A stretch of 12,232 bases of DNA from Bacteroidota bacterium (GTDB lineage: Bacteria > Bacteroidota > Kryptoniia > Kryptoniales > JAKASW01): assembly GCA_021796055.1 (NCBI GenBank), contig JAJYOS010000093.1, positions 1 to 12,232 of the forward strand. Reading direction: 5' to 3'. A program made the translations under genes and the position numbers. The notes under the pieces are model-generated. The model worked only from the letters and a program-made list of their open reading frames with translations, ran no database searches and had not been told where the DNA came from. Positions 1-12,232 of this stretch are shown one piece after another; positions within the stretch are counted from its first letter, which is position 1; every line of letters begins with the position of its first letter.

Positions 1-1239
1 CGTCGTTGGGTTGAACGGATTAGGATAGTTCTGGGACAGGCCGAACGAAGACGGCTGCGCTGACCGCTGGTCAACTGGGGTACTTACAAAAGTGTACCCT
101 CGCGAATAAAGGTGAAATGGACCAGACTTGTCGCTCTGCCACACCACGAAGGCAAGAGGAGAGATGAGGGGATCGCTCCCAGGCAGAATGCTGTCTGGAG
201 AGTCGCCGAAGAAAACGATCGACGTGTCGGAAGCCGCTATCTTTTCGGCGGTGACCATCCAGTTAAAATATGATGTCTGCACTGTAAATTTTGGCGACTT
301 GGTGCTGGCGGTCAACTGAGGATAACTGAGCTGCCTCGCGAAAATGTAATCAGCGTTTGCTCCGCCCGCAAGCTCGGCGGTTACCCAACCGTTTATTCCA
401 TAATAATAGTACCACCATGAAGACCGCTTGCCGTTTGCGCTTACGTTGAATGTAAATGTTTTCCCAAGCTCACCATTGTCGATCGTAAAACTCGGATCGG
501 TTATGCTTCCATCGGCACCGATGGAATCGGGGGGTGAGATGTGGAGTCCGGCGGAATCTTTCACAGCCGATTCCGCGCAGAACATATTTCCAGCGAGGTT
601 CTGCACGGTCCACACAAAATAGCTGCCGTCAAAATCAAATTCAGAATTGCCTGAATTCGTAAAGGTAAGAGTCCTTGTTGCCGAGAACCCGCCAGAATTG
701 TAAATCGAATAGAGAAAGGCGTTCCCCCTTTTCCAGATCAGGGCCATGCTCGAATCCGAAAGAGGCCTGACTTCGACGTTTGTGTTGCTGACGGAATCCA
801 TCGTAAGAGGCGAAGGCGTCGACCACAGGTCGCTGCTGATGTTTCCCAGGCTGTAGTAGATGTTCCAAACGCTGTCAGACTTCTGCTGCCACGCCGCGAT
901 AGAGACCCCGTTCTTCACCGTACAAATGTCCGGGTATTTCCGGACGATGCCGGAATCTTCTCCCGCAATCGTAACGACGCTCGTATCCCACTTCGATGTA
1001 GTAGCGTCGTATTTCAGCGCCACTATCGCGTCGTAATTACCACCCCATCTTTCAAAAACGACCCATGCACTAGGCAGAACAGTCTTATATCCTGTTATGA
1101 AGGGGAAACCAAGACCGGCGTGATCCACTTGCGGATTGATGTCGTTGAAATTTCCCGTTGTAATCGTGTCGATCGTATCCGACCACTGCGCGGATGCGGC
1201 GCACGTCATTAACAGAAGCAGTATCACGACCTTCTTCAT
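1..1239 (-). CDS. Type IX-secreted protein, probable beta-propeller (3' end cut by window edge)
   Basis: The frame is open for 413 codons from the ATG at 1239 to the window edge, with no internal stop. A stop lies just upstream at 1243-1245, and GGAGG sits about 8 bases before the ATG, so the start is well fixed. Residues 1-18 form a signal peptide (MKK, a leucine run, then an ASA-Q cleavage site). The visible end, residues 403-412, reads NYPNPFNPTT. In FCB-group bacteria this motif opens the C-terminal sorting domain recognised by the type IX secretion system, so the missing part is probably only about 70-80 residues. The body is rich in Ser, Asp, Trp and Tyr and has degenerate units such as AAWQQ..WNIYYS (about 115) and VVWQSD..FHLYS (about 367). 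These resemble the blades of sialidase/BNR-like propellers. The propeller call is inference; export and sorting are well supported. The substrate or ligand is unknown. Confidence 0.85.
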   Translation of the reverse strand, partial: MKKVVILLLLMTCAASAQWSDTIDTITTGNFNDINPQVDHAGLGFPFITGYKTVLPSAWVVFERWGGNYDAIVALKYDATTSKWDTSVVTIAGEDSGIVRKYPDICTVKNGVSIAAWQQKSDSVWNIYYSLGNISSDLWSTPSPLTMDSVSNTNVEVRPLSDSSMALIWKRGNAFLYSIYNSGGFSATRTLTFTNSGNSEFDFDGSYFVWTVQNLAGNMFCAESAVKDSAGLHISPPDSIGADGSITDPSFTIDNGELGKTFTFNVSANGKRSSWWYYYYGINGWVTAELAGGANADYIFARQLSYPQLTASTKSPKFTVQTSYFNWMVTAEKIAASDTSIVFFGDSPDSILPGSDPLISPLAFVVWQSDKSGPFHLYSRGYTFVSTPVDQRSAQPSSFGLSQNYPNPFNPTT

Positions 1240-1483
1240 CTCTCACCCTCCTTAATTGAGCGCCGGGCTCTCGGCCAGAGCCTGCAGTCTTTGTAGCATC
1301 GGCTGTATGAATCGCTCCCGAAAAGCCCCCGAACCTCTTCCTTCAACTCTTCGGCCCGGAGGACAGCCTGGCTGTTAGCTCTTGACCATGAAGCCCTTGA
1401 TGCCAAAACTTAGTCAGAAGAAGCGGAAACATCAATATCCCATCCGCACGCGTAAAGAAAGGATCTTCAAAACGCCCGGCTTT
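1240..1483. other. Intergenic spacer with two small dyads
   Basis: This 244-base gap separates two minus-strand genes. It holds the ribosome binding site of the left gene (GGAGGG on the minus strand, near 1246-1252). A 6-bp stem with a 5-base loop lies at 1266-1282 (GGCTCT/AGAGCC), and an odd-centred palindrome ACAGCC-T-GGCTGT at 1363-1375. Neither is followed by a convincing T-run, so I do not call a terminator for the upstream glycoside-hydrolase-like gene. The palindrome could be a regulator site, but nothing else supports that. Confidence 0.3.
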
Positions 1484-3760
1484 CTATTTCACGACTATCT
1501 CGTCGATGAATATCCAGCTCTTCTGCCCGGCGCCTAGGTGCCAAACTGGACAGACTTTGCGCGAGATGGCGTCAACCTTTATGTATCTCACCTTAACGGG
1601 ATGGAACTTCACGTCGAAATTTCTGACGAACGCTCCGTTGGTCGTATCCGGAACAATATCGGGAACTTCTCCTACCGGCGAGAAGGTCTTTCCGTCCGTG
1701 GATACGGAGAACTTCACTTTCAGCGGAAGCCATATCCAGGCATACCAATCCTGGAGCCATGAAGTCTTGATTTCGTCGACACGTTTTACGGACTGCAGGT
1801 CGACTATAGCTTCGCAGTTGTCACCCTCGAAACCGAGCCAGTTGCAGTCGTAGTTGTCTGGTCCGTGGAATCCGTCCGTCAGAGCAGCGCCTCCTCCAAC
1901 CGGGTACTTGTTGCTGTATTCAGTGAGTATCCTTACCGGCTTCTTATAAGCAAGGTTCCCCTTGATGCTGAGATGCATAAACTGCTCCACCGACTCCTTG
2001 TATTGCTCGGGAGACATGCCGTGTTCCTGTAGCAGCTTGATTCCGGCCTTCTCCGCCTCAGTCACGAAAGAGTTGAGAAGCCTCACCATCGAGCGGCGTA
2101 CCGTCCAGTTCCTTCCATGCCTGACAAAGTAGGATAGCTGAGGAGTCGGATGACGCATGGAGATGTCGAGTATGGCGAACTCCAGCGGAAGCCGGGCGAT
2201 CTTCACCCGGCGAAGGTCCGCGGGACGCTTCGCGACGGCTCGCTCGGCTTCGTCGAATAATCGCGAATACTTTTTGATCAACGATGGAGTAAGGTAGCTG
2301 TCGAGCGCGTCGTATGGCGACCCGTAAATATTTAGTCCCTTCCCGGACTTCGCGAGAGCATCTTCCATCATGTTTATGTACCTGTGGAGGTAGGGTCCGG
2401 CAGCGCCGTAGTACCCGTCGAGAAAATCTGTCATGACGGAGTCGAGATTGACATTCGGGTTCCAGAGAAGCTTCGCGAGAACATACGCGCGGAGGTGGCA
2501 GAACTCGCCGACGTTGTCGCCGCATCCCTGCTCGAACACCATGCGGATCCCATTCCGCTCGAAGTATTGGATGTTCGGCTGAAGGACACGGAAGTTGGGA
2601 AACGGGCTGACGAGGTTGCTGAATTGAACGACGTAGTCCCACATTATGATGTTGTGGGTGAGCTTCGTCCAGTTTTCCATGTCGCGGCGAAATGAGGCGC
2701 TCCGCGGATCGGTCGCGATCGGCTCGCTCCTATTACATTCAATGGAACAAAGCATTATGTTGACGTTCTTGGCAGGCTTGATATGTGTCGGTGCGGCACG
2801 GGTGTACTGGTAAGCGAGAGTCGAAATCGTTTTGTCGGGGAATTCGGCGGCGACATGGTTCACGAAATTGACGATCGTGCCGGAAGGACCTCCGTATTTT
2901 TCGTCGAGCGCTTTGCTCGAATCATCCTGGCTCTCGTTGGTATTGTCGTTCTGGGAGACCGACCAGTACTGAGCGCCCGGATTTTCGGACATCATCCGTT
3001 TCAGATTCTTGACGAGCAGCGGCAGGACGTGTGGATTCGACAGACACAACTGACCGTTTGGCACTCGCTGCCCGTTTACCTCCGAGAAGTAATCGGGGTG
3101 ATCCGCGAAGTATATTGACGGCGGAATTAGTCTCGCGAACGTGTGTACCCACATCCCCCACATCTTTTGCTGGTCTGCCGGGGAGTAGAGTTTCTGCCAG
3201 TCGCAGTAATCCTGGCTTTGCGTGTCGAGGTAGTAAACCTCTCGATACCGGAAGAAAGGATTGTAGAGTTTATGAAGCTGCGGGAGAACTATCGATGAAG
3301 AACGCGGAATCACAGTCACGGTGGCGGTGTACTTCCTGCATCCGAGATAATCTTCGAGAAGAGAGTAGACACCGTACAATGTACCCCTATGCGTCCCTCC
3401 GCAAATGACTAGCTTCGTCCCAACGGTCCGGAGGAGATAGCCGTCAGGTTCGAGCGAGTCGAGCGTCTTCGCTGATAGAAGCTGTCGGGTCTCCATCGTC
3501 CGCCCAATCAGTATCTCATCCTTGAAACTCGCAGGTTCCCGTTCTATCGGTAGAACCGCTCCGCTGATCTCAGCGAAATATTTCTGAAGTTGGTTCGCTG
3601 AACGGAGCTCGACCGAATCCGGGTGAACGGGAATGACTATGCGGAAGTCGCTCTTACCCTTTGTCACGATTTTGAATTTGCCGGGCGAGGACTGCGCGCC
3701 GAACGATTGCGACACTGGAAGGAAAATGATTGAAAAGAAAAGCAGTAATCGTTTTGTCAT
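1484..3760 (-). CDS. Exported DUF4838 / alpha-glucuronidase-like protein with C-terminal F5/8-type (discoidin) domain
   Basis: 758 residues. The frame stays open 33 codons further upstream, but the ATG at 3760 is preferred: GGAG lies 8 bases before it and it begins a clear signal peptide (MTKRLLLFF..., cleavage near residue 22). Residues about 28-145 look like the N-terminal alpha/beta domain of GH67-type alpha-glucuronidases and related hydrolases (GGTHRGTLYGVYSLLEDYLG at 121-140). Residues about 160-455 match the DUF4838 pattern: REVYYLD, WGMWVHTFARLIPP, a Ser-Gln-Asn-Asp-Asn stretch near 268-273, and the IMWDYV segment near 372. About 455-600 is helical. Residues about 600-758 resemble an F5/8 type C carbohydrate-binding domain, with a typical VRYIKVDA strand near 724-731. 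It probably attacks or binds acidic plant or algal polysaccharide in the periplasm or at the surface. The catalytic residues cannot be assigned with confidence, and the ending is not a type IX sorting tail. Confidence 0.85.
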   Translation of the reverse strand: MTKRLLLFFSIIFLPVSQSFGAQSSPGKFKIVTKGKSDFRIVIPVHPDSVELRSANQLQKYFAEISGAVLPIEREPASFKDEILIGRTMETRQLLSAKTLDSLEPDGYLLRTVGTKLVICGGTHRGTLYGVYSLLEDYLGCRKYTATVTVIPRSSSIVLPQLHKLYNPFFRYREVYYLDTQSQDYCDWQKLYSPADQQKMWGMWVHTFARLIPPSIYFADHPDYFSEVNGQRVPNGQLCLSNPHVLPLLVKNLKRMMSENPGAQYWSVSQNDNTNESQDDSSKALDEKYGGPSGTIVNFVNHVAAEFPDKTISTLAYQYTRAAPTHIKPAKNVNIMLCSIECNRSEPIATDPRSASFRRDMENWTKLTHNIIMWDYVVQFSNLVSPFPNFRVLQPNIQYFERNGIRMVFEQGCGDNVGEFCHLRAYVLAKLLWNPNVNLDSVMTDFLDGYYGAAGPYLHRYINMMEDALAKSGKGLNIYGSPYDALDSYLTPSLIKKYSRLFDEAERAVAKRPADLRRVKIARLPLEFAILDISMRHPTPQLSYFVRHGRNWTVRRSMVRLLNSFVTEAEKAGIKLLQEHGMSPEQYKESVEQFMHLSIKGNLAYKKPVRILTEYSNKYPVGGGAALTDGFHGPDNYDCNWLGFEGDNCEAIVDLQSVKRVDEIKTSWLQDWYAWIWLPLKVKFSVSTDGKTFSPVGEVPDIVPDTTNGAFVRNFDVKFHPVKVRYIKVDAISRKVCPVWHLGAGQKSWIFIDEIVVK

Positions 3761-4112
3761 CCGGCATCTCCATTCTTCAGACCTGAACTTCTTTAGGAGT
3801 CGTGAATTGATCGAAGGTGAACCTTCAAAGCTAGTTAGCGGGCCTTGTCGAAGCAACAAGAGAGCCTCCGGGATACTGCAATTTGACAGTTGACCCGGGC
3901 AAATTCAGGTTTTGGTAAACGGCCTGAGATTCTACCGATTGCACGATAATTTATAATGTTACGCAAATGGGATTGCAGGATATCTAAAAAGTTTGGGATT
4001 TTCAGGTGGTCGGAGAGAAATTCGCCGGGCTTTCACTCTGGTTCATTACCGTTTCCACGGCGGTCAATCAAGGAAGAGTTCAGTTCAAGTAACTTTTTGG
4101 CGCGTTCAGGTT
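3761..4112. other. Non-coding gap upstream of the DUF4838 gene
   Basis: This 352-base stretch between two minus-strand genes shows no plausible coding frame. On the minus strand a TATAAA box at 3955-3950, with a poor -35-like CTGCAA 17 bases upstream (3978-3973), is a weak promoter candidate for the hydrolase gene. It would give a leader of about 180 bases. A short dyad GAAGGT-GA-ACCTTC lies at 3813-3826 within that leader. I see no clear terminator for the msrB-like gene, only a weak CCGT-TTCC-ACGG hairpin without a T-run. Confidence 0.3.
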
Positions 4113-4643
4113 CTATTTTCCGCTGTCCGGCACGAAAATCAGCGCGGCCGAATTGATGCAGAACCTTTCACCGGTCGGCGGCGGGCCGTCGTAAAAAAGA
4201 TGCCCAAGATGATTCCCCGCTTTGTCTAGCACTTCTATCCTTGGCTCGCCCGGAAGGCTGTAGTCCCAGCGGAGTACCACCGCGTCGGAGTCGATCGGCG
4301 CCCAGAAGCTCGGCCAGCCGGTGCCCGAATGAAACTTGGCGGCAGAACTGAAGACTGGCTGGTGTGTCGCGGCGCTCAGGTAAATGCCACGCTTGAACTC
4401 CTGATCGAGTTTACCGCTATAAGGCATTTCGGTGCCCGCCTCTCTCATGATATAATACTGGTACGGCGTAAGTATCTTCCGCCATTGCGCGTTCGTCTTG
4501 AACTCACTGGCGTTGAAGCTACCCGATATTATCTTCCCGTTGGATGGAACAGGTCCCGCAACTCCGCGCGTTCCCTTGCTCAACACCGCTCCAACTCCCC
4601 CCACTGCCAACGCCGCGAGCACAATCCAAAGACTCTTGATCAT
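4113..4643 (-). CDS. msrB: Periplasmic peptide-methionine (R)-S-oxide reductase MsrB, zinc-free, single-cysteine
   Basis: 176 residues; the ATG at 4643 follows GAGG by 7 bases. Residues 5-20 form a hydrophobic signal or anchor, so the enzyme should face the periplasm. The MsrB fold (about 50-172) is clear: SGTGWPSF at 106-113, HLGHLF at 145-150, DGPPPTGERFCIN at 152-164. C162 in RFCIN is the catalytic cysteine that attacks methionine-R-sulfoxide. It is the only cysteine in the protein. The two CxxC pairs that bind zinc in most MsrBs are replaced (GIYLSAATHQ where GIYxCxxC is usual), and no resolving cysteine remains. The sulfenic acid on C162 must therefore be reduced by an outside thiol. The DipZ-like protein encoded 140 bases upstream on the same strand, with an exported thioredoxin domain, is the obvious candidate donor (inference). 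Confidence 0.92.
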   Translation of the reverse strand: MIKSLWIVLAALAVGGVGAVLSKGTRGVAGPVPSNGKIISGSFNASEFKTNAQWRKILTPYQYYIMREAGTEMPYSGKLDQEFKRGIYLSAATHQPVFSSAAKFHSGTGWPSFWAPIDSDAVVLRWDYSLPGEPRIEVLDKAGNHLGHLFYDGPPPTGERFCINSAALIFVPDSGK

Positions 4644-4702
4644 CTTGAATCCTCGTTTTCAAGTTTAGAACCTTAGACCTTTTCATCGAGACTTCCTGGT
4701 CG

Positions 4703-4764
4703 AAAATACCGGAGACACCGGGCGAAGAGCGACCATCTTCTCCGGCATTCTCCGTGTCTCCGGT
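4703..4764 (-). terminator. Long inverted repeat, possible terminator or attenuator between dipZ-like gene and msrB
   Basis: Perfect 11-bp arms, ACCGGAGACAC at 4708-4718 and GTGTCTCCGGT at 4754-4764, enclose 35 bases. Read on the minus strand, the hairpin follows the stop of the dipZ-like gene by about 20 bases and is followed by ATTTTC. The T-run is short and the loop long, so it may be a weak terminator that lets some transcripts continue into msrB. The enclosed DNA carries further TCTCCGG-like copies that allow alternative pairings. Confidence 0.45.
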
Positions 4765-4783
4765 TTACCATGGACCGGTTGTT

Positions 4784-6529
4784 TCATCCGAACGTAAAGG
4801 CAAATGCTTCAGTACCGGGATTCTCGAATTCCAGCACGAGAATGTGATCTCCTTTTTTGCCGTGCAGATCTATTAGGTTGTAAAGTCGCGCGGTGTCTAT
4901 TGTGATTGCGCCGTCCTTAACGTCGGAGCCTGCGTTCGAGCCATCGGCAGGCTTACCGTCGAGGAATACTTTCACCTTAGCGCCTGCGCCCGCCGATCCG
5001 GGGCGGAGGACAAGGAACACCTTGTCCGCATAGAAATGATAACTCAGCGTCGCATCTTTCCCCGAGACGGCTTCGTGCCGCCTTATGTCCCAGTTCCCGC
5101 CGAGACTGAAAGAGTTCAACGCCGGATCCTTCGCCAGAACAAAGAGGCGGTTCCCGACATTGACAGATCCCGATGGATAGAAGAACTCCATTCGATACGT
5201 CCCGAGGTAAGTCTCAGGCGACTGATTCCCATCCGGCGTTTTGTTCGGAATGTCCGTCAAGGGCGAGGTAACATTCTGGCCTGCCTGGCCGAGAAGCTCC
5301 CGGATCGCCATCTCCATCTGACGATACTCGCCTTCGCCGAAATGAGTCCGCCGCACCATCCCTTTCGCGTCTATGAGATACTCCGCGGGCCAGTACTCGT
5401 TGTTGTAATTGTTCCATGTCGCGTAATCGTTGTCCTGTGCGACCGGGTATTTTATATGGTACATCTTTATCGCGCTCAAGACATTCGAGGTCTTGTGCTC
5501 AAACTGAAACTCCGGCGTGTGAACCCCGATGACCACAAAACCTTTATCCTTATACTTATTGTACCATGCCGTAACATGCGGAAGCGTCCTTATGCAGTTG
5601 ATGCAGGTATATGTCCAAAAGTCGACGAGAACCACCTTCCCCCTCAGGCTCTTGATTGAGATCGGCTTGTCGGTATTAAGCCAATGAGTTATACCGACGA
5701 AATCCGGAGCTTTGTATTTTGCGTTAAACAGATCGCTTTGCGCCGGAGGTGGATCGACGTATTTCACATCCTTGATACCCTTGAGAAGATCGAGCTGCTT
5801 CGTTACCGCTCCGTTGCTCTCGAAGCCGTTTAGAGAAGTGCTGAATTCAGGGAACGCGTTCAGCAGTTTCGACTCAATGTACCTGTCGTAGTTCGTGTAA
5901 ATTGCGACGGCGGTAAGGAGCATTATCACGCCGAATCCCTGTTGTATTCTTCCGAGATGCGCCGATAGAAAACGAGTGCGGGTTAAAAGGGCTTGTCCTC
6001 CATAAGCGAATAGGAACAAAGGTATCCCGACACCGAGGACATATGCCGCGGTAACGAGAACGACAGCGAAGTCAACTTTTCCCGTGGCAGCCAACGCCGC
6101 TATCGATGCGAGTATCGGTCCCGCGCAAGGAGACCACACTATCCCAAGAGAGAGACCCGTCAGGAAACCTTGGCCAAAACCGGTCCCCTTCTTAGGGTGC
6201 TGTCCGAATAAACCGCTGAGCCTGCTTATGAATCCCTCCACCCTTCTCGAAAGGGCGGGAACAACCATCGTGAGTCCCATGAATGCTATGATTATCACCG
6301 CCGCGATGCGCAGAGAGTCGGGGTCGAAATGGAATTCCTTGACGAGATAAGAAAGCGCAAGGGTGAAGAACCCGAAACTGAGCATTACACCGAACGTTAT
6401 CCCGAGTGGTCGCCGTCGGCCTTTGCTCGCGACGGACGATGAGAGGACGATCGGGAGTATCGGCCAAATACACGGAGTAAGAATTGTCACTAAACCTGCC
6501 AGGAACGAGAAGCCAAGTAATATTATCAT
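4784..6529 (-). CDS. dipZ: DipZ-type thiol-disulfide carrier: CcdA membrane domain + thioredoxin domain + C-terminal beta-sandwich
   Basis: 581 residues from the ATG at 6529, which has AGGAG 5 bases upstream. An in-frame GTG at 6535 overlaps that ribosome binding site and is rejected. Residues about 1-215 form the six-helix CcdA/DsbD-type electron channel, with the paired cysteines in TPCIWP (C20) and SPCAGP (C135). After a linker, residues about 270-415 are a periplasmic thioredoxin-like domain with the active site WTYTCINC (C309, C312). The other hallmarks are VVIGVHTPEF and a cis-proline-type segment near YWPAEYLID. Residues about 435-581 form a Gly-rich beta domain like the carbohydrate-module-like tail of mycobacterial DipZ. 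These four are the only cysteines, matching a relay from cytoplasmic thioredoxin through the membrane pair to the outer CxxC. Likely clients are the MsrB downstream and apocytochromes such as the octaheme protein encoded divergently (inference). Confidence 0.92.
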   Translation of the reverse strand: MIILLGFSFLAGLVTILTPCIWPILPIVLSSSVASKGRRRPLGITFGVMLSFGFFTLALSYLVKEFHFDPDSLRIAAVIIIAFMGLTMVVPALSRRVEGFISRLSGLFGQHPKKGTGFGQGFLTGLSLGIVWSPCAGPILASIAALAATGKVDFAVVLVTAAYVLGVGIPLFLFAYGGQALLTRTRFLSAHLGRIQQGFGVIMLLTAVAIYTNYDRYIESKLLNAFPEFSTSLNGFESNGAVTKQLDLLKGIKDVKYVDPPPAQSDLFNAKYKAPDFVGITHWLNTDKPISIKSLRGKVVLVDFWTYTCINCIRTLPHVTAWYNKYKDKGFVVIGVHTPEFQFEHKTSNVLSAIKMYHIKYPVAQDNDYATWNNYNNEYWPAEYLIDAKGMVRRTHFGEGEYRQMEMAIRELLGQAGQNVTSPLTDIPNKTPDGNQSPETYLGTYRMEFFYPSGSVNVGNRLFVLAKDPALNSFSLGGNWDIRRHEAVSGKDATLSYHFYADKVFLVLRPGSAGAGAKVKVFLDGKPADGSNAGSDVKDGAITIDTARLYNLIDLHGKKGDHILVLEFENPGTEAFAFTFG

Positions 6530-6557
6530 ATTCACTCCTATCTATTTGTAAACTGAG

Positions 6558-6587
6558 ATTATTGAGTAAAGTTCCGCGATATGTTAA
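6558..6587 (-). promoter_or_regulatory. Candidate promoter for the dipZ-like gene
   Basis: On the minus strand TTAACA (6587-6582) and AATAAT (6563-6558) are separated by 18 bases. Each matches five of six positions of the sigma-70 consensus. Transcription would begin near 6550, giving a leader of about 20 bases before the ATG at 6529. FCB bacteria often use other promoter sequences, so this remains tentative. Confidence 0.35.
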
Positions 6588-6765
6588 CCTTCACGTAGGA
6601 ATTCTATTGAGAATCGCGGCCCTTGAAACGCGGATCGGGGGAATCAGAAAAAGACCATGGTGTAGATTGCGGCAAGCCACCGTTTAAGTTTTCAAGACTG
6701 GGACATTATACCACTCTCCAGCGATCAAATGGCCGGTAAAACCGCTCAATCTTGGGCATACTCCT

Positions 6766-6781
6766 TGTATTTATAAATACA
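6766..6781. promoter_or_regulatory. Perfect 16-bp palindrome just before the MerR-type gene, possible operator
   Basis: TGTATTTATAAATACA is its own reverse complement and ends three bases before the ATG at 6785. It sits in an AT-rich pocket of otherwise balanced DNA. It also contains a -10-like TATAAA (6772-6777). The first gene of the operon is a MerR-type regulator, so autoregulation through this site is plausible. I cannot place well-matched -35 and -10 boxes around it with the 19-20 base spacing typical of MerR-controlled promoters. A different regulator, or a translation-blocking hairpin, is also possible. Confidence 0.45.
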
Positions 6782-6784
6782 GGC

Positions 6785-7261
6785 ATGCAAACACGAGTCG
6801 AGGCTACACCAACCTACTCCATAGGAGAAGTTGCGGCCGCACTTGGAATATCGGTCGAGACGATCAGGCTGTATGATCGGCTTGGACTCGTAATTATTTC
6901 TAAGTCGGAAAGAGGCCGCAGGATCTTTTCCGAGGTGGACATTGAGCGGCTGAAGTGCATACGAACCGCGATCAACGAGCACAAGATTTCGATCGAAGGT
7001 ATTCGCCGGATGCAATCGCTCGTGCCATGCTGGTCTCACATTGAGTGTCCTGAAGATCAGAGAAAGAATTGTCCCGCATTCCTAAGGTCAAGCGGCGGGT
7101 GCTGGACATACATGCACAGCAACAATCGGCGCGCGGGGCTCGACTGCAAGGAATGCAAAGTGTACCAGCTTTCCGGCACCTGCGAAAACATCAAGTCTCT
7201 GATCTACAAGGATATTTTACCACCACCCGAATTTCAAAGACGACAGGAAGACCAGGAATGA
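6785..7261 (+). CDS. MerR-family regulator with C-terminal cysteine-rich two-CW-like domain
   Basis: 158 residues from the ATG at 6785. The frame could begin at a TTG at 6752, but that would put the start inside the palindrome region and add residues with no family match. Residues 11-78 are a MerR-type winged helix: YSIGEVAAALGIS, ETIRLYDRLGL, GRRIFSEVDIERL, then INEHKISIEGI. The dimerisation helix is cut short after about residue 80. Residues 81-135 hold seven cysteines in the order CW (82), C88, CPA (96), CW (106), CKECKVY (121, 124), C133. I recognise this spacing as the pattern called the two-CW domain in other proteins, whose ligand I do not know. An iron-sulfur, metal or thiol/redox sensor is the likely use. 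The gene overlaps the next by ATGA, so it is co-translated with the cytochrome it probably controls. Confidence 0.85.
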   Translation: MQTRVEATPTYSIGEVAAALGISVETIRLYDRLGLVIISKSERGRRIFSEVDIERLKCIRTAINEHKISIEGIRRMQSLVPCWSHIECPEDQRKNCPAFLRSSGGCWTYMHSNNRRAGLDCKECKVYQLSGTCENIKSLIYKDILPPPEFQRRQEDQE

Positions 7262-8826
7262 AAAGAATCGCTCTCGCTCTCCTAGTTCTGGGAACCTTCT
7301 CCGCTTTGGTCCTCACAGCGCTCAATAAGAATAGCTCAGACACTCCTCCTCTTACTAAGCTGAAGGAACAATACGCGACGAAGCCAAAACCGTCAGTCGA
7401 TCATTCGTTGTTTCCCGAACTCAAAAAGAAATTCAAGCGTCCCCAGGATGTCACCGCTGCCTGCATCTCGTGCCATAACGGTCGCGCGGAAGAAGTCATG
7501 CACTCTTCTCATTGGCAGTGGGAGCGGACGGAGTACATTGCCGGGAAGGGAATCCGAAACGTCGGCAAGAGAAACATACTCAACAATTTCTGCATCGGTG
7601 TTCAAAGCAACGAGCAGAGCTGCACGCGTTGCCACGTCGGGTATGGGTATGCGAACAACAAGGCTTACTTTGCCGACTCGCTCGACGTAGATTGCCTCGC
7701 GTGCCATGATAACAGCGGCACATACGCAAAAATGAATGAAGGCGCAGGCATGCCGGACGCGTCCGTGAACCTAAGCTACGCCGCTCAGCACGTCGGAATT
7801 CCCACTCGCGCAAACTGCGGCGCCTGCCACTTCTTCGGCGGAGGCGGGAACAACGTGAAGCACGGCGACCTTGAAGAGGCGATCTTCGATCCCGCAAGGG
7901 ACATCGACGTACACATGGCCACCGACGGCGTCAACATGCAATGCGTCGATTGCCATACGGCGAAAAACCACCAGATGCTCGGCAAGATGTATTCGGTCTC
8001 TTCGATGAACAGAAACCGCGTTCAATGCGAAAGCTGTCACGGGCCCATGCCGCACAAAGACGATGTGCTGAACAACCACACATTGAAAATTGCCTGTCAG
8101 ACCTGCCACATTCCAGAGTATGCTAAAGTCAATCCGACGAAGCTGTTCTGGGATTGGTCGAAAGCGGGGAGGCTGAAGAATGGTAGACCGTACGAGCTCA
8201 AAGATTCCAACGGCACCGACGTTTACATGTCGATAAAGGGCTCATTCAAATGGGGAAAAGACTTAAAGCCGAATTATCTCTGGTTCAACGGCACCGCAAC
8301 CCACTATCTACTCGGAGACAAGTTCGATCCGTCGAAGCCTCTCGACATCAATCGTCTCATGGGAAGCTACGACGATCCCGATTCGAAGATATATCCGGTG
8401 AAGGTCCACACCGCCGAACAGATCTATGATACCAAGAACGACTACCTCATCCAACCGAAACTCTACTCGGCAAAAAAGGGAGACGGCGGATTCTGGGGGG
8501 ATTTCAATTGGCAAACTTCGGCGACCGCCGGAATGCGCGCTGTCGGGCTCCCATACAGCGGCCATTATGGATTCACCGAGACAAAGATGTACTGGCCTAT
8601 AAACCACATGGTGGCGCCGAAGGAGAAGGCGGTCGGCTGCGGAGAGTGCCACACGCGCAGCGACGGACGGCTCGCGGATGTCGGAGGGTTCTATATGCCC
8701 GGACGCGATTACAACCCGTGGGTCGAAAGGTTTGGATTTGGATTGATGGCCCTGACGCTGGCGGGCGTTTTCATGCACGGCGGCGCACGAATAGTCGTCA
8801 ACCGTAAACGAAAGAGGAGCAGATGA
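7258..8826 (+). CDS. Octaheme c-type cytochrome, tetrathionate reductase (OTR) family
   Basis: 522 residues. The start is the ATG at 7258: it overlaps the upstream stop (ATGA), has AGGAAG 7 bases before it, and begins an export sequence (MKRIALALLVLG). The frame extends 63 codons upstream, but that part runs inside the regulator gene. There are exactly eight CxxCH haem sites, with first cysteines at 69, 122, 146, 187, 229, 257, 280 and 461. Seven are clustered and the last lies after a long insertion, as in the OTR family. Shewanella OTR reduces tetrathionate, nitrite and hydroxylamine in vitro through a lysine-ligated haem; K135 is a possible ligand here. C112 is an extra non-haem cysteine just before haem 2. 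A hydrophobic segment at about 492-512 followed by basic residues should anchor the protein with its haems in the periplasm. The cytochrome b encoded next is its likely quinol-side partner. The true physiological substrate is not provable from sequence. Confidence 0.9.
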   Translation: MKRIALALLVLGTFSALVLTALNKNSSDTPPLTKLKEQYATKPKPSVDHSLFPELKKKFKRPQDVTAACISCHNGRAEEVMHSSHWQWERTEYIAGKGIRNVGKRNILNNFCIGVQSNEQSCTRCHVGYGYANNKAYFADSLDVDCLACHDNSGTYAKMNEGAGMPDASVNLSYAAQHVGIPTRANCGACHFFGGGGNNVKHGDLEEAIFDPARDIDVHMATDGVNMQCVDCHTAKNHQMLGKMYSVSSMNRNRVQCESCHGPMPHKDDVLNNHTLKIACQTCHIPEYAKVNPTKLFWDWSKAGRLKNGRPYELKDSNGTDVYMSIKGSFKWGKDLKPNYLWFNGTATHYLLGDKFDPSKPLDINRLMGSYDDPDSKIYPVKVHTAEQIYDTKNDYLIQPKLYSAKKGDGGFWGDFNWQTSATAGMRAVGLPYSGHYGFTETKMYWPINHMVAPKEKAVGCGECHTRSDGRLADVGGFYMPGRDYNPWVERFGFGLMALTLAGVFMHGGARIVVNRKRKRSR

Positions 8827-8827
8827 A

Positions 8828-9511
8828 ATGAGGAAGGAATATATATATCACCGGTTCGAGCGATTCTGGCACTGGATGCAGGCCGCGCTCATTATCTTCC
8901 TTGGCGTTACGGGCTTCGAGATCCACGGCTCATTCACTTTCTTCGGATACGAACAGGCCGTAGAGTACCATGACATCGCCGCATGGAGCTTCATCATGCT
9001 CATCGTGCTGGCAATTTTCTGGCACATCACGAAAGGCGAATGGCGTCAGTATCTCCCGACGTGGAAAAATCTGAAGGCTCAGGCGAATTACTATATTTTC
9101 GGGATATTCAGAAACGCTCCCCACCCCACGAAGAAAACCGTGCTGACCAAGCTTAATCCTCTTCAGAAACTTGTCTACGCGGGGTTGAAGGTTCTCTTAA
9201 TTCCAACGATGGTCTTAACCGGCCTCGTGTACATGTTCTACCGCTACCCGCAGCAAAACGAAGTCCTTAGCCTGAATATAAGTGGGTTGCAGACGGTGGC
9301 CTTGCTCCACACTCTAGGCGCGTTTCTGCTCGTTTCCTTCTTCGTCGCGCACCTGTACCTGATCACCACGGGGCACACGGTAACCTCGAATCTTCGGGCC
9401 ATGATAACCGGCTATGAAGATCTCCATGACGAGACCACAAATGTAGCGCGTGAATCCGCGCCCACGGCATCGGACAAGATTGCAGCTGAGACTAAAGAGG
9501 TGACACAATGA
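8828..9511 (+). CDS. Four-helix membrane cytochrome b (b561/HupC-like), quinol dehydrogenase subunit
   Basis: 227 residues; the ATG at 8828 begins one base after the cytochrome c stop, with AGAGGAG about 8 bases upstream. Four membrane helices are visible at about 14-32, 50-68, 113-137 and 155-180. Histidines suited to bind two b haems are H8, H15 (RFWHWMQ), H48, H66 (FWHIT), H161 (LLHTLGA) and H175 (FFVAHLYLIT). This arrangement is that of di-haem cytochromes b serving hydrogenases, formate dehydrogenases and thiosulfate reductases. The tail after residue 195 is charged and Thr/Ala-rich, without recognisable function. By position it should pass electrons between the quinone pool and the octaheme cytochrome; direction is inferred. 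The gene overlaps the next by ATGA. Confidence 0.88.
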   Translation: MRKEYIYHRFERFWHWMQAALIIFLGVTGFEIHGSFTFFGYEQAVEYHDIAAWSFIMLIVLAIFWHITKGEWRQYLPTWKNLKAQANYYIFGIFRNAPHPTKKTVLTKLNPLQKLVYAGLKVLLIPTMVLTGLVYMFYRYPQQNEVLSLNISGLQTVALLHTLGAFLLVSFFVAHLYLITTGHTVTSNLRAMITGYEDLHDETTNVARESAPTASDKIAAETKEVTQ

Positions 9512-10020
9512 AAACGAAATATATGAACCCATACCTCGCAGGTTTCTTCCTCGGGCTTGTTTTGCTCGCGACGATATTCATAACGGGACGCGGGCTTGGG
9601 GCCAGCGGCGCAATTAAGGACGCAACGATCTCGATTTCCAACGCGATCGCGCCGAGATTTACTGAGACAAATCCCTTCTTCGGCCAATACGTCGGCGCCG
9701 GGAAAGAGAACCCTCTAAAATCATGGCTCGTGTTCGAGATAGCCGGGGTCCTGATCGGCGGCTTCATATCCGGTCTTGTTTCGGACCGGCTAAAATTGGT
9801 AACCGAGGCGGGACCGAGAGTTAAACCAAGAGCGAGATGGTTCTTCGCGGCGATAGGCGGCGCGTTATTCGGGATAGGAGCGCAGTTCACACGCGGCTGC
9901 ACCAGTGGCGCCGCGCTAAGCGGGATGGCTGTCCTTTCGACCGCCGGATTCATAGCAATGCTTTCAATATTTGGCACCGGGTACCTGGTTGCGTACCTCG
10001 GCCGCAAACTCTGGATATGA
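9508..10020 (+). CDS. YeeE/YedE family sulfur-transport protein, first half
   Basis: 170 residues; the start ATG at 9508 overlaps the stop of the cytochrome b gene and has AGAGGTG 5 bases upstream. Membrane segments lie at about 8-28, 72-92, 111-128 and 138-166. The family signature GAQFTRGCTSGAALSG (124-139) contains the only cysteine, C131. In the characterised YeeE thiosulfate importer, cysteines of this kind line the path and hand thiosulfate along. Full-length YeeE has two such halves; this protein is one half and needs the next gene product to complete the pore. Large basic loops precede helix 3. The substrate is probably thiosulfate or a related sulfur species. Selenium-associated members also exist, but no selenium genes are present here. 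Confidence 0.88.
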   Translation: MKTKYMNPYLAGFFLGLVLLATIFITGRGLGASGAIKDATISISNAIAPRFTETNPFFGQYVGAGKENPLKSWLVFEIAGVLIGGFISGLVSDRLKLVTEAGPRVKPRARWFFAAIGGALFGIGAQFTRGCTSGAALSGMAVLSTAGFIAMLSIFGTGYLVAYLGRKLWI

Positions 10021-10030
10021 GAGGTAAATC

Positions 10031-11224
10031 ATGGGACCATTCGTACCTGACCTGATTTCAGATCAATTGAATCTCATCGTAGCCCTCCTCCTTGGAATCG
10101 CCTTCGGCTTTGTCCTCGAGCAGGCAGGCTTCTCCTCCTCGCGGCGACTCGCGGGGGTTTTCTACGGCTATGATTTCACAGTGCTTCGAGTTTTCTTCAC
10201 TGCAGCGATCACCGCGATGAGCGGCGTGCTTCTCCTCGGCCATTTCGGTCTGCTGGACACCGATGTCATCTATGTGAATCCGACCTGGCTTGTCCCCGCT
10301 ATTGTGGGCGGAGTTATCATGGGAATCGGCTTCATCGTCGGCGGTTACTGCCCGGGCACAAGTGTGTGCGCCGCCGCGATCGGGAAGGTCGATGCGATGT
10401 TCTTTGTTGGCGGGGGACTCCTTGGCGTGTTCGCCTTCGGTGATCTATTCCCCCTGTACGAAAACTTCTACACTTCGACGGCGCTCGGACCAATCAGGGT
10501 GTTCGATTCGTTGGGGATGTCACAGGGGGTATTCGCTTTCATCATAATTATGGTTGCCGTCGCCGCTTTCGTGGTCACGACCATTATCGAAAGAAGAGTG
10601 GACAGTAAGTCGGCTCCTTCGTTTAAATTCAAGCCGCTTAAGCACGCGGCAGCGGGAACGTTCGCCATCGCGCTTGGCGTCATTTTCATTTTCATGCCCA
10701 ATCACAAGGCGGCCATGATCGAGAAAGTGACCGATCCATCGTACACGGCAGCGCATCCGGTTGACAAAATGGACGCCGACGAGCTCGCTTTCCGGATCGT
10801 CGATCACGAACAGAATATCCGGATAATTGACATCCGCTCGGCTAAAGAATTCGCCGAGCTCGCCCTGCCGAACTCTTACAATATCCAGAGGTCCGACTTA
10901 TTTGGTAAAGACTGGGTTTCGACTTTCTCTCAAAGACATCTCAAGAAAGTTGTGGTGGGCAACGACGAGGTTCAGGAGCGAACAGCATACTACTTACTGA
11001 AGGAGTTGGGATACGAGAATCTTGCTATCCTTCGCGGTGGAATCGGCACGTTCAGAAAAAACATACTTAGCTCTACCGCGTTCGTCCCGACGGGTTCCCA
11101 CTGGGATGCGGACGTCAAGGAATTTCGTGAAGGCGCCCGGGTTACGATCCTCAAAATGATTGCAGACGCGAAGAATAAGCCTGTTAAGACCATTATCAAA
11201 AGAAAAATTCAGGGGGGCTGCTAG
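10031..11224 (+). CDS. YeeE/YedE family protein, second half, fused to a rhodanese-like domain without catalytic cysteine
   Basis: 397 residues; the ATG at 10031 follows GAGGT by 5 bases and lies 10 bases after the previous stop. Membrane helices occur at about 13-32, 55-72, 86-105, 121-138 and 163-186, with a final one at about 206-222. The family signature GGYCPGTSVCAAA (104-116) supplies C107 and C113, the counterpart of C131 in the partner. After the last helix, residues about 243-345 form a rhodanese-like domain: IRIIDIRSAKEFAE, LPNSYNI, and RTAYYLLKELGYENLAILRGG. The active-site loop, normally CxxGxR, reads GNDEVQER, so there is no catalytic cysteine. The remaining tail (about 350-397) is basic and the protein ends QGGC, with C397 as the last residue. 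The domain should lie in the periplasm or cytoplasm depending on helix count; I cannot settle which. It may bind or pass on sulfur rather than transfer it catalytically. Confidence 0.88.
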   Translation: MGPFVPDLISDQLNLIVALLLGIAFGFVLEQAGFSSSRRLAGVFYGYDFTVLRVFFTAAITAMSGVLLLGHFGLLDTDVIYVNPTWLVPAIVGGVIMGIGFIVGGYCPGTSVCAAAIGKVDAMFFVGGGLLGVFAFGDLFPLYENFYTSTALGPIRVFDSLGMSQGVFAFIIIMVAVAAFVVTTIIERRVDSKSAPSFKFKPLKHAAAGTFAIALGVIFIFMPNHKAAMIEKVTDPSYTAAHPVDKMDADELAFRIVDHEQNIRIIDIRSAKEFAELALPNSYNIQRSDLFGKDWVSTFSQRHLKKVVVGNDEVQERTAYYLLKELGYENLAILRGGIGTFRKNILSSTAFVPTGSHWDADVKEFREGARVTILKMIADAKNKPVKTIIKRKIQGGC

Positions 11225-11236
11225 GCAGGGCAGGTG

Positions 11237-11262
11237 AATAGGGGGTGGCAACACCCCCTATT
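11237..11262. terminator. Bidirectional intrinsic terminator
   Basis: A perfect 11-bp stem, AATAGGGGGTG pairing with CACCCCCTATT, closes a GCAA loop of the stable GNRA type. It lies between the converging ends of the sulfur operon (stop at 11224) and the polyphosphate kinase gene (stop at 11275). The A/T ends of the arms give short U-runs in both directions, so it probably ends transcription from both sides. Confidence 0.8.
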
Positions 11263-11274
11263 TCGCCAGATTGA

Positions 11275-12153
11275 TCAGCGACGTTCTTCGAGCTTCTTAC
11301 GGATGTTCTTCAGCTCTTCCCTCCGGCCACCCGACGTCTTCGGATATTTGAGCCCCAGCGATTTAAGCGCGTCGACGACCACCTGAGAAACTATGAGCCT
11401 CGCGTTCTCCTTGTCGTCCGCGGGTATAACGTACCATGGTGCCTTATCCGTGCTTGTCGCGCTTATGCATTCCTCGTAGGCCTTCATGTAATCCTTCCAG
11501 TACTCCCGCTCCGCGATATCAGCTTCGCTGAACTTCCAGTTTTTTTCCTTGTCGTCTATCCTTTCGAGAAACCGCCTTCGCTGTTCTTCTTTCGATAAGT
11601 GGAGGTAAAACTTGAGCACCCTCGTACCGCTCTCATATAGATGCTTTTCGAAATGCCTAATCGCCTTGAATCTTTCTTTCCATAATTTGTCACCGCGCAA
11701 TTCGTCGGTATCGATCCCTTCTGCCCCGAGAAGATCCGGATGAACGCGCACGATAAGGACCTCCTCATAATAGGACCTATTGAAGATGCCTATCTTTCCT
11801 CTTTCCGGAAGACACTTGGTCGTTCGCCATAGAAAATCGTGTTGTAATTCCCCGGCACTCGGCTGCTTGAAGCTGTAGACCTGGCAGCCCTGCGGGTTGA
11901 CTCCGGACATCACGTGCCTGATGGTGCCATCTTTCCCGGCGGCGTCCATCGCCTGAAAGATCAGGAGTACAGCGTACTTGTTCGAAGCATAGTGGACGTT
12001 CTGCAACGAACTCAGCTGCGACACGTGCTCATCAAGAAGTTGCTTATAAGCTTTCTTGGAATTGTAAATCGGATTTACTCTCGTTGGCCGTTTGTCGAGA
12101 TCCGCCTTTTGATCTTCGCTTACCCTGAATTCTTCTACGTCTATTTTCATCAT
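11275..12153 (-). CDS. ppk2: PPK2-family polyphosphate:nucleotide phosphotransferase
   Basis: 292 residues, the normal size of a one-domain PPK2. It uses polyphosphate to phosphorylate nucleoside mono- or diphosphates (or the reverse) in the cytoplasm. The Walker A loop is [11 protein letters not shown] (67-77), with D70 and K74 as expected catalytic residues. The following segments [10 protein letters not shown] (80-89), FLWR (107-110), [16 protein letters not shown] (124-139) and the Arg-rich lid ([13 protein letters not shown], 189-201) are all family hallmarks. The overall pattern fits the class III-like group often named polyphosphate:AMP/ADP phosphotransferase, though class cannot be proven here. 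The tail after residue 272 is highly charged. The start is one of two adjacent ATGs (12153 or 12150); AAGGA lies close to both, and the second has slightly better spacing. It converges on the sulfur operon and shares only the terminator with it. Confidence 0.95.
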
Positions 12154-12232
12154 AATCCTTTCCGCGCGACATTCGCGATTGTCCCTACCATGGAAATTAG
12201 AAATCGCGCGCGACTCTTTCAGCTTCTCATAG
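12154..12232. other. Upstream region of the PPK2 gene
   Basis: The last 79 bases hold the PPK2 ribosome binding site (AAAGGA on the minus strand) and a 7-bp inverted repeat, CGCGATT at 12174-12180 and AATCGCG at 12202-12208, with 21 bases between the arms. No coding frame is recognisable before the window ends. Confidence 0.3.

Follow-up and report, generated by a model that had tools for sequence, protein, structure and literature searches.

Why should an octahaem cytochrome be encoded together with a split sulfur transporter, and what could pass between the two? The question is raised by a 12,232-nucleotide stretch of a Bacteroidota genome (assembly GCA_021796055.1, contig JAJYOS010000093.1, positions 1 to 12,232; hereafter the window), in which five plus-strand genes are packed into 6785-11224. 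They encode a MerR-type regulator, an octahaem cytochrome c of the OTR family, a cytochrome b and the two halves, YeeA and YeeB, of a YeeE-type transporter. Based on sequence comparisons, the cassette probably reduces sulfur compounds outside the membrane and passes sulfur into the cell. We give an even chance to the more specific proposal that it is a regulated, quinol-fed module for periplasmic sulfur reduction and import, equipped with a tethered sulfur arm like that of SoxY. The proposal draws on the gene set and its conservation, the arm, the loss of a catalytic cysteine, the exchange of the reductase in a sister operon and a shared operator-like site, all of which can be read from the DNA. 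The features of the locus are as follows (TM, transmembrane).

6753..6782, plus strand: putative operator; an upstream GGCA block (6755-6758), then the perfect palindrome TGTATTTATAAATACA (6766-6781)
6785..7261, plus strand: MerR-family regulator (Pfam MerR_1) with a Cys-rich two-CW region
7258..8826, plus strand: octahaem cytochrome c, OTR family (TIGR04315), with an N-terminal signal or anchor and a C-terminal TM segment
8828..9511, plus strand: cytochrome b561/PhsC-like membrane subunit (PF01292), 4 TM
9508..10020, plus strand: YeeE/PmpA-like half A (YeeA, C-half type; Pfam Sulf_transp), with Cys131
10031..10699, plus strand: YeeE/PmpB-like half B (YeeB), residues 1-223, with an added sixth TM helix and Cys107
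10775..11068, plus strand: rhodanese-like domain of YeeB, residues 249-346, without catalytic Cys
11069..11221, plus strand: variable linker of YeeB (residues 347-394) and terminal GGC arm (395-397)

Conservation of the gene cassette

An earlier annotation made from the letters alone (the sequence-only reading) had described five tightly packed genes, and the boundaries bear this out. The MerR gene overlaps the OTR gene by 4 bases, a 1-base gap separates OTR from cytochrome b, cytochrome b overlaps half A by 4 bases, and half A and half B (10031-11224 as a whole) lie 10 bases apart. The grouping is not due to chance, because the gene order recurs across phyla. A scan of named genomes with the window OTR as query covered the best 80 of 154 candidate loci, a sample biased to near kin. 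OTR, cytochrome b (CytB), YeeA and YeeB were located on the same strand and within reach of each other in 55 of the 62 loci with at least 4 kb downstream of OTR; the full set is missing from L102, L103, L106, L108, L109, L110 and L112. Strains with the cassette include Carboxylicivirga sp. A043 (L080) and Labilibacter sediminis CG51 (L099). The order was found in Bacteroidota, Armatimonadota, Acidobacteriota and Electryoneota. It is thus not unique to this genome, and its retention across loci supports the earlier claim that the genes form one functional unit.

Of 296 genomes sampled evenly across the phylum, 41 contained an OTR above the cut-off. By count of the listed rows these correspond to 44 OTR places, 26 of which adjoin a YeeB-like match. 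The frequencies were 20 of 247 in Acidobacteriota (the phylum of L074) and 9 of 151 in Armatimonadota (the phylum of L045), and 20 stretches from these two phyla were inspected. Seven harbor OTR, YeeA and a GGC-ended YeeB (L240, L244, L246, L253-L256); no separate CytB is listed for L254, where a long overlapping frame was taken first. Another eight contain OTR alone or with CytB (L238, L239, L241-L243, L245, L247, L248), and five contain OTR inside proteins of 1078-1130 amino acids (L249-L252, L257).

The phylogeny of OTR follows the presence of the cassette. In a FastTree analysis of 144 OTR rows, of which 137 are different (duplicate contigs include L071/L130 and L100/L127) and which show long branches, one group holds 98 of the 99 cassette OTRs together with two short contigs and L102. 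The cassette label changes four times on this tree, compared to 38.5 times when shuffled. The exception, L121, is located outside the main clade on a very long branch and may be misplaced.

The sequence-only reading knew of no pathway defined for this gene set, and neither a description nor an assignment of the cassette was found in open-licence papers, a search that leaves subscription papers mostly outside. Excerpts of PMC9516567 and PMC6548844 deal with a subject other than this operon.

A cysteine-tipped arm on YeeB

Half B is more than half a transporter. The sequence-only reading had missed its sixth TM helix, its rhodanese-like domain without catalytic cysteine and its variable linker ending in GGC. 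Pfam at E<=0.001 identifies Sulf_transp and Rhodanese in the protein, and no SoxY domain. All 120 YeeB homologues listed of 2724 matches (query included) end in GGC, and some of the nearest named relatives are labelled Kryptonia or Ignavibacteriales. The motif is present in 63 of the 65 YeeB rows from the loci, the other two having gaps at this position. Mean column identity in a chosen set of 89 rows is 0.45 for the linker and 1.0 for GGC, and in the AlphaFold2 (AF2) model residues 389-397 have a predicted local distance difference test score (pLDDT) below 50. The catalytic cysteine of rhodaneses occurs within one column of its expected position in one of the 89 rows, which is not that of the window; the domain therefore lacks the signature of an active rhodanese.

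Six TM segments are predicted by hydropathy, and the helices also appear in the AF2 model. Loops 1, 3 and 5 are net negative, loops 2, 4 and 6 are neutral or positive, and the loop before TM6 carries a charge of +3.0. Because of this charge pattern, and because the N side is the more positive one in stand-alone relatives (see below), the data suggest that the rhodanese-like domain and the arm are periplasmic.

The carboxy-terminal motif of SoxY is GGCGG. YeeB shares with SoxY a cysteine near the C terminus on a flexible, glycine-containing arm, here predicted to be periplasmic, but it differs in its rhodanese fold, in having no SoxZ partner and in the fusion of the arm to a transporter. Sud of Wolinella is presumably related to rhodanese. 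It would share with the YeeB domain the function of a periplasmic sulfurtransferase, in this case of polysulfide respiration (PMC3397948), whereas in YeeB the catalytic cysteine is lost in most rows and the terminal cysteine is conserved instead.

A sister operon with a different reductase

YeeB matches were found in 135 of the 296 phylum genomes, many of them only short YeeE halves and some adjoining a separate rhodanese-like match. Of 20 places inspected from this list one (L172) is an OTR locus, and the remaining 19 all encode a PhsA/PsrA-like molybdoenzyme, an iron-sulfur (FeS) subunit, NrfD, YeeA, YeeB and a GC-ended rhodanese-like protein. YeeB and the rhodanese-like protein share one frame in L169, and two GC-ended rhodanese-like proteins are present in L170. 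A regulator with the CW motifs of the window MerR (MerR-CW) accompanies 15 of the 19 operons. The best NCBIfam match of the L164 molybdoenzyme is thiosulfate reductase PhsA, at 512.7 bits and under the cut-off of 694. The PhsA-like, FeS and NrfD set is the same as in PhsABC and PsrABC operons; what the sister operon adds is the YeeE pair together with a Cys-tailed carrier, in most cases with MerR-CW as the regulator. Here the split YeeE pair stays while OTR-CytB is replaced by a PhsA/PsrA-type reductase, which strengthens the link to sulfur drawn in the sequence-only reading. That reading had noticed neither the sister operon nor the operator shared with it.

The stand-alone carriers resemble the YeeB arm in their ends. 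All 120 listed of 325 matches (query included) end in EGC, and a cysteine at the catalytic column is kept in 13 of the 120. They possess an N-terminal hydrophobic segment, with the N side more positive in 112 of 121 proteins (120 homologues and one from L102). This last protein is the lone match among 945 other open reading frames (ORFs) of at least 120 amino acids in L002-L112 that were searched for an end of G, E or D followed by GC and at most one further residue. It is a GGC-ended rhodanese (L102, 6591-7115) with a signal-anchor-like hydrophobic N terminus and the catalytic cysteine present, encoded directly after OTR-CytB in a locus without YeeE. In the OTR tree L102 is positioned at the edge of the cassette clade. 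Judged by its gene content, L102 is an intermediate that ties the arm to the reductase. Because it combines OTR, CytB and rhodanese without YeeE, a GC-ended rhodanese can accompany the reductase in the absence of the pore.

Cytochromes and pore

The structure of OTR has been solved since 2004, and we know of no agreed physiological substrate. The window protein belongs to this family, with 590.7 bits for TIGR04315 against a curated cut-off of 375, and aligns with the Shewanella OTR 1sp3 over residues 55-468 of 522 (phmmer, 433 bits). It contains eight CxxCH sites, as counted before, which recur in 100 of 101 aligned OTRs. Residues K201 and C112 correspond to K153 and C64 of 1sp3 and are conserved in 101 of 101 rows. 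We take K153 to be the ligand of the active haem, so that this lysine is retained as K201, and C64 presumably sits in the active site. Cys112 is located ten residues before the motif of haem II, the catalytic haem of OTR (PMC4484225). Hydrophobic segments span residues 4-22 and 488-506. While the eight CxxCH sites and the equivalents of K153 and C64 are common to both proteins, the window OTR differs from that of Shewanella in its C-terminal TM segment and in the dedicated cytochrome b and sulfur transporter of its operon. Published work connects OTR with sulfur compounds: an enzyme from Beggiatoaceae reduces tetrathionate faster than nitrite (PMC6449678), and in a microcosm with tetrathionate the otr transcript level was raised on day 8 (p=0.0488; PMC8528874).

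The cytochrome b shows four TM segments and matches Ni_hydr_CYTB (PF01292) with 94 bits; against the NCBIfam model for thiosulfate reductase cytochrome B it scores 102.4 bits, under the cut-off of 204. The sequence-only reading had called it a di-haem cytochrome b. Of its histidines, H15, H48, H161 and H175 are each kept in 99-100 of the 100 rows aligned and H66 is kept in 88, so a di-haem state is plausible.

The two YeeE/YedE halves with signature cysteines proposed earlier were found as such. Half A matches Sulf_transp with 62.2 bits over profile positions 174-309, and half B with 52 bits over positions 10-191. Cys131 of half A is invariant across 84 rows, and Cys107 of half B across the 65 rows from the loci. 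Two proteins that match the N and C halves and carry one conserved cysteine each are the arrangement of PmpA/PmpB, whose cysteines match C91 and C293 of TsuA (PMC11582611). The best alignment of half A to TsuA (8k1r) covers residues 234-317 (E=0.0002) and likewise shows the cysteine correspondence for this half. Half B is longer than PmpB owing to its added domains: the extra TM helix, the rhodanese-like domain and the GGC arm set it apart from PmpA/PmpB and TsuA/SoxT. A TusA-like TsuB partner, as in TsuA-TsuB, was not found, and in contrast to TsuA/SoxT there is no TusA/TsuB domain.

The regulator and its putative operator

The regulator has an N-terminal MerR helix-turn-helix (HTH; Pfam MerR_1, 63.9 bits). 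In its AF2 model (pLDDT 83.4) the HTH matches MerR structures, and a fold search that included the CW region gave MerR-type proteins alone among the matches shown. Across 32 rows from both operon types P81, C82, C88, C96, C106, W107, C121, C124 and C133 are invariant and W83 is present in at least 90%; the window protein lacks one cysteine (column 116) that at least 90% of the rows possess. Both CW motifs claimed in the sequence-only reading are thus present, but the NCBIfam two_CW_domain model yields 11.6 bits against a cut-off of 35 (E=0.27), and the name is not established for this regulator.

The palindrome TGTATTTATAAATACA ends 3 bases before the MerR start codon and is found exactly in nine MerR-CW loci, window included. 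Additional OTR-type operons, as well as Phs-type ones, carry a related longer form, TTGATATTTATAAATATCAA, before MerR-CW. By chance a mean of 0.01 matches with at most 3 mismatches would be expected in the window, and the own genome holds no second copy at up to 1 mismatch and one at 2 mismatches. A scan with a consensus that includes the upstream TGGCA, and that was drawn from the same sites it then scored, located a site with at most 3 mismatches in 12 of the 25 MerR-CW loci of the OTR type and in 10 of the 15 of the Phs type; the 78 loci that lack MerR-CW had no such site. The 12 do not include the nine loci that carry the shorter palindrome, in L180 and L182 the match and the regulator gene are on different strands, and five of the 15 Phs-type loci are without a good site. 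In other cassettes MarR or ArsR genes adjoin instead of MerR-CW. Because regulator and operator-like site are shared between OTR-type and Phs-type operons, a shared signal is suggested.

The spacing from the GGCA block to TTG before MerR-CW (window 6753-6769; TTGC in the relatives L018 and L042-L044) was recorded as a separate observation. The spacing of TGGCA-N6-TTG equals that of sigma-54 promoters, and a promoter of this kind may be present, but most of these sites are without the GC of the -12 element. An FNR-like interpretation of TTGAT...ATCAA was set aside, as its spacing does not fit the FNR consensus.

Genomic context

The sequence-only reading had advised a search for TusA, DsrE or Sox genes nearby. 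In a survey of 150 of 182 neighbour ORFs from 47 loci, which left out 22 ORFs of at least 700 amino acids and 10 others including the downstream piece of the split YeeB of L096, the 25 most frequent of the 227 Pfam families included none of the three. Clustering of the neighbours recovered a mixed thioredoxin-fold group (21 loci), response regulators (15), Nitro_FeMo-Co-type proteins (11) and a MarR-type regulator (11), and beyond the cassette and MerR-CW no sulfur-pathway family stands out. TusA (PF01206) has no match in the own genome, which is 99.82% complete, and has one in 11 of 14 control genomes. The own genome does contain a siroheme-type reductase domain pair (PF01077), four rhodanese matches and weak molybdopterin matches at two places; sulfur assimilation is possible.

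Upstream of the operon, genes for MsrB and DsbD-TlpA (4113-6535, minus strand) are arranged divergently and perhaps serve periplasmic thiol repair. Both are also present in L034 and L036, and DsbD-TlpA alone in L033. They were rejected as members of the unit, as they occur only in near relatives.

Proposed function and alternatives

In the proposed route, electrons from menaquinol would pass via cytochrome b to the membrane-anchored OTR, which would reduce an oxidised sulfur species with the participation of the active-haem lysine and Cys112. The likeliest substrate would be tetrathionate, or a thiosulfonate or persulfide on the terminal cysteine of the GGC arm. The arm, whose periplasmic side is supported by the topology analysis, would swing on its flexible linker as in SoxY, pick up sulfur at the reductase and offer it at the entrance of the PmpA/PmpB-like pore, where Cys107 and Cys131 may help thiosulfate or sulfane sulfur inward, by analogy to TsuA and SoxT. 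For SoxT, a passage of sulfur from the SoxY cysteine along the channel cysteines has been called conceivable (PMC11582611), and in lucinid symbionts a SoxY gene follows otr (PMC11237559). The MerR regulator would act on the operon from the palindrome before its own start codon. It may equally well prove right or wrong that these proteins represent a novel type of periplasmic sulfur carrier. In such a carrier a rhodanese-like domain, in most cases without its catalytic cysteine, would work through a terminal GGC or EGC swinging arm instead. Fused to a PmpB-like transporter or anchored next to one, it would shuttle sulfur between a two-part pore and a quinol-linked reductase of interchangeable type (OTR-cytochrome b or PhsA-type), often under MerR-CW. 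Swinging-arm sulfur carriers are known from Sox oxidation; if the proposal is true, reductive sulfur metabolism uses a tethered one too, and a function is found for genes of several phyla that bear no annotation beyond 'rhodanese-like' or 'YeeE/YedE'. That OTR is conserved together with a Cys-tipped arm and a sulfur pore points to a class of substrates that can be tested directly.

Several points weigh against this proposal. None of the cassettes has a known activity or phenotype, and on the present results sulfur could flow in either direction. The AF2 model of YeeB is of middling quality (pLDDT 76.5, predicted template modelling score 0.62), and in a fold search with its membrane half, in which the TsuA fold of 6leo/8k1r was sought, the matches shown were filled by rhodaneses and did not include TsuA. 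The part after TM6 has a net charge of +2.3 and its last 15 residues one of +4.4, which taken alone does not favour the outside. L089 encodes a near full-length YeeB without the GGC end, and other cysteines occur from residue 196 onward in 35 of 89 YeeB rows. The missing TusA match leaves the cytoplasmic acceptor without a candidate. OTR-CytB occurs without a YeeE or rhodanese-arm match in the Chlorobi-like L113 and L114, in Paracoccus and in Photobacterium, so some OTRs can do without the arm. In Caldithrix, which possesses an OTR and, close to a pair of sulfurtransferase genes, a Psr/Phs set, growth tests left respiration of sulfur, polysulfide or thiosulfate unconfirmed (PMC5317091). OTR also reduces nitrite and hydroxylamine in vitro (PMC4484225).

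A simpler explanation, which follows the sequence-only reading and which we consider rather doubtful, is that tetrathionate and thiosulfate are both handled in free form, the one being respired by OTR to the other and the latter being imported by the split YeeE, with the arm as a minor accessory or docking element. The activities of the OTR and YeeE families (PMC6449678, PMC11582611) and the replacement of OTR-CytB by a PhsA/PsrA-type reductase agree with this explanation, but it accounts neither for the conserved GGC on a variable linker, nor for the loss of the rhodanese cysteine, nor for the GGC-ended rhodanese beside OTR-CytB in L102, where YeeE is absent. The same components could also run in the oxidative direction: OTR or the Phs-type enzyme would oxidise thiosulfate or an arm persulfide in a Sox-like manner, electrons would pass via cytochrome b to quinone, and the remaining sulfur would be imported. 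The tetrathionate/thiosulfate couple can run both ways, but the usual task of cytochrome b561/PhsC and NrfD modules is to supply reductases with electrons from quinol. This direction is judged unlikely, even with a SoxY gene downstream of otr in sulfur-oxidising lucinid symbionts (PMC11237559) and the precedent of import by SoxT (PMC11582611), since Sox families are also not among the 25 commonest neighbour families.

It is very unlikely that OTR serves in defence against nitrogen oxides, hydroxylamine or peroxide while the sulfur part repairs thiols. Such a function would suit the in vitro activities of OTR, the peroxiredoxin and CGGC protein beside the short, YeeE-less OTR of L013, a peroxiredoxin-like ORF seen by eye before the OTR of L113, and the DsbD-TlpA gene upstream in the window and three close relatives, with MsrB in the window and two of them. 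However, these DsbD/MsrB neighbours are confined to near relatives, the sister operon carries a reductase of the thiosulfate/polysulfide type, and no nitrogen-oxide family is among the 25 commonest neighbour families. Finally, the sulfur brought in by pore and arm might serve only as a signal to the regulator, a role that has been put forward for SoxT1B and SoxR (PMC11582611). The dedicated operator-like site, single in the genome at up to 1 mismatch, would fit a signalling role of this kind, but MarR or ArsR genes replace MerR-CW in other cassettes while pore and arm stay, and the idea is regarded as highly improbable.

Other OTR architectures and flanking genes

The genes that flank the unit are located on the minus strand and encode a DUF4838/GH67-N protein (1484-3859) and an ADP-polyphosphate phosphotransferase (PPK2; 11275-12153); both are outside the unit. 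Several further OTR loci deviate from the cassette. L121 (4842-9956) has OTR-YeeA-YeeB without a separate cytochrome b and with the tail GGLCS, and its next protein carries cytochrome c and b561 domains. In the Acidobacteriota fusions OTR forms the C-terminal part of the 1078-1130 amino acid proteins, with Pfam NrfD before OTR in L250 and an FeS gene preceding the fusion in L252; these represent another design of electron input. OTR-linked cytochrome b is fused to PAS domains in L103 (3038-4372) and L109 (6601-7563), in operons without YeeE, and long cytochrome b frames also occur in L105, L106, L108, L110 and L112. By eye, some of the PAS-cytochrome b operons are near Nitro_FeMo-Co and ParA/Mrp-like genes. 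The short OTR of L013 (742-3275) has no cytochrome b, and short OTRs may have a different role. TIGR04315 is among listed selenoprotein families (PMC13188914). An OTR-like stretch in pieces with three in-frame TGA codons (G015:C42:1988-2857) is perhaps a decaying gene.

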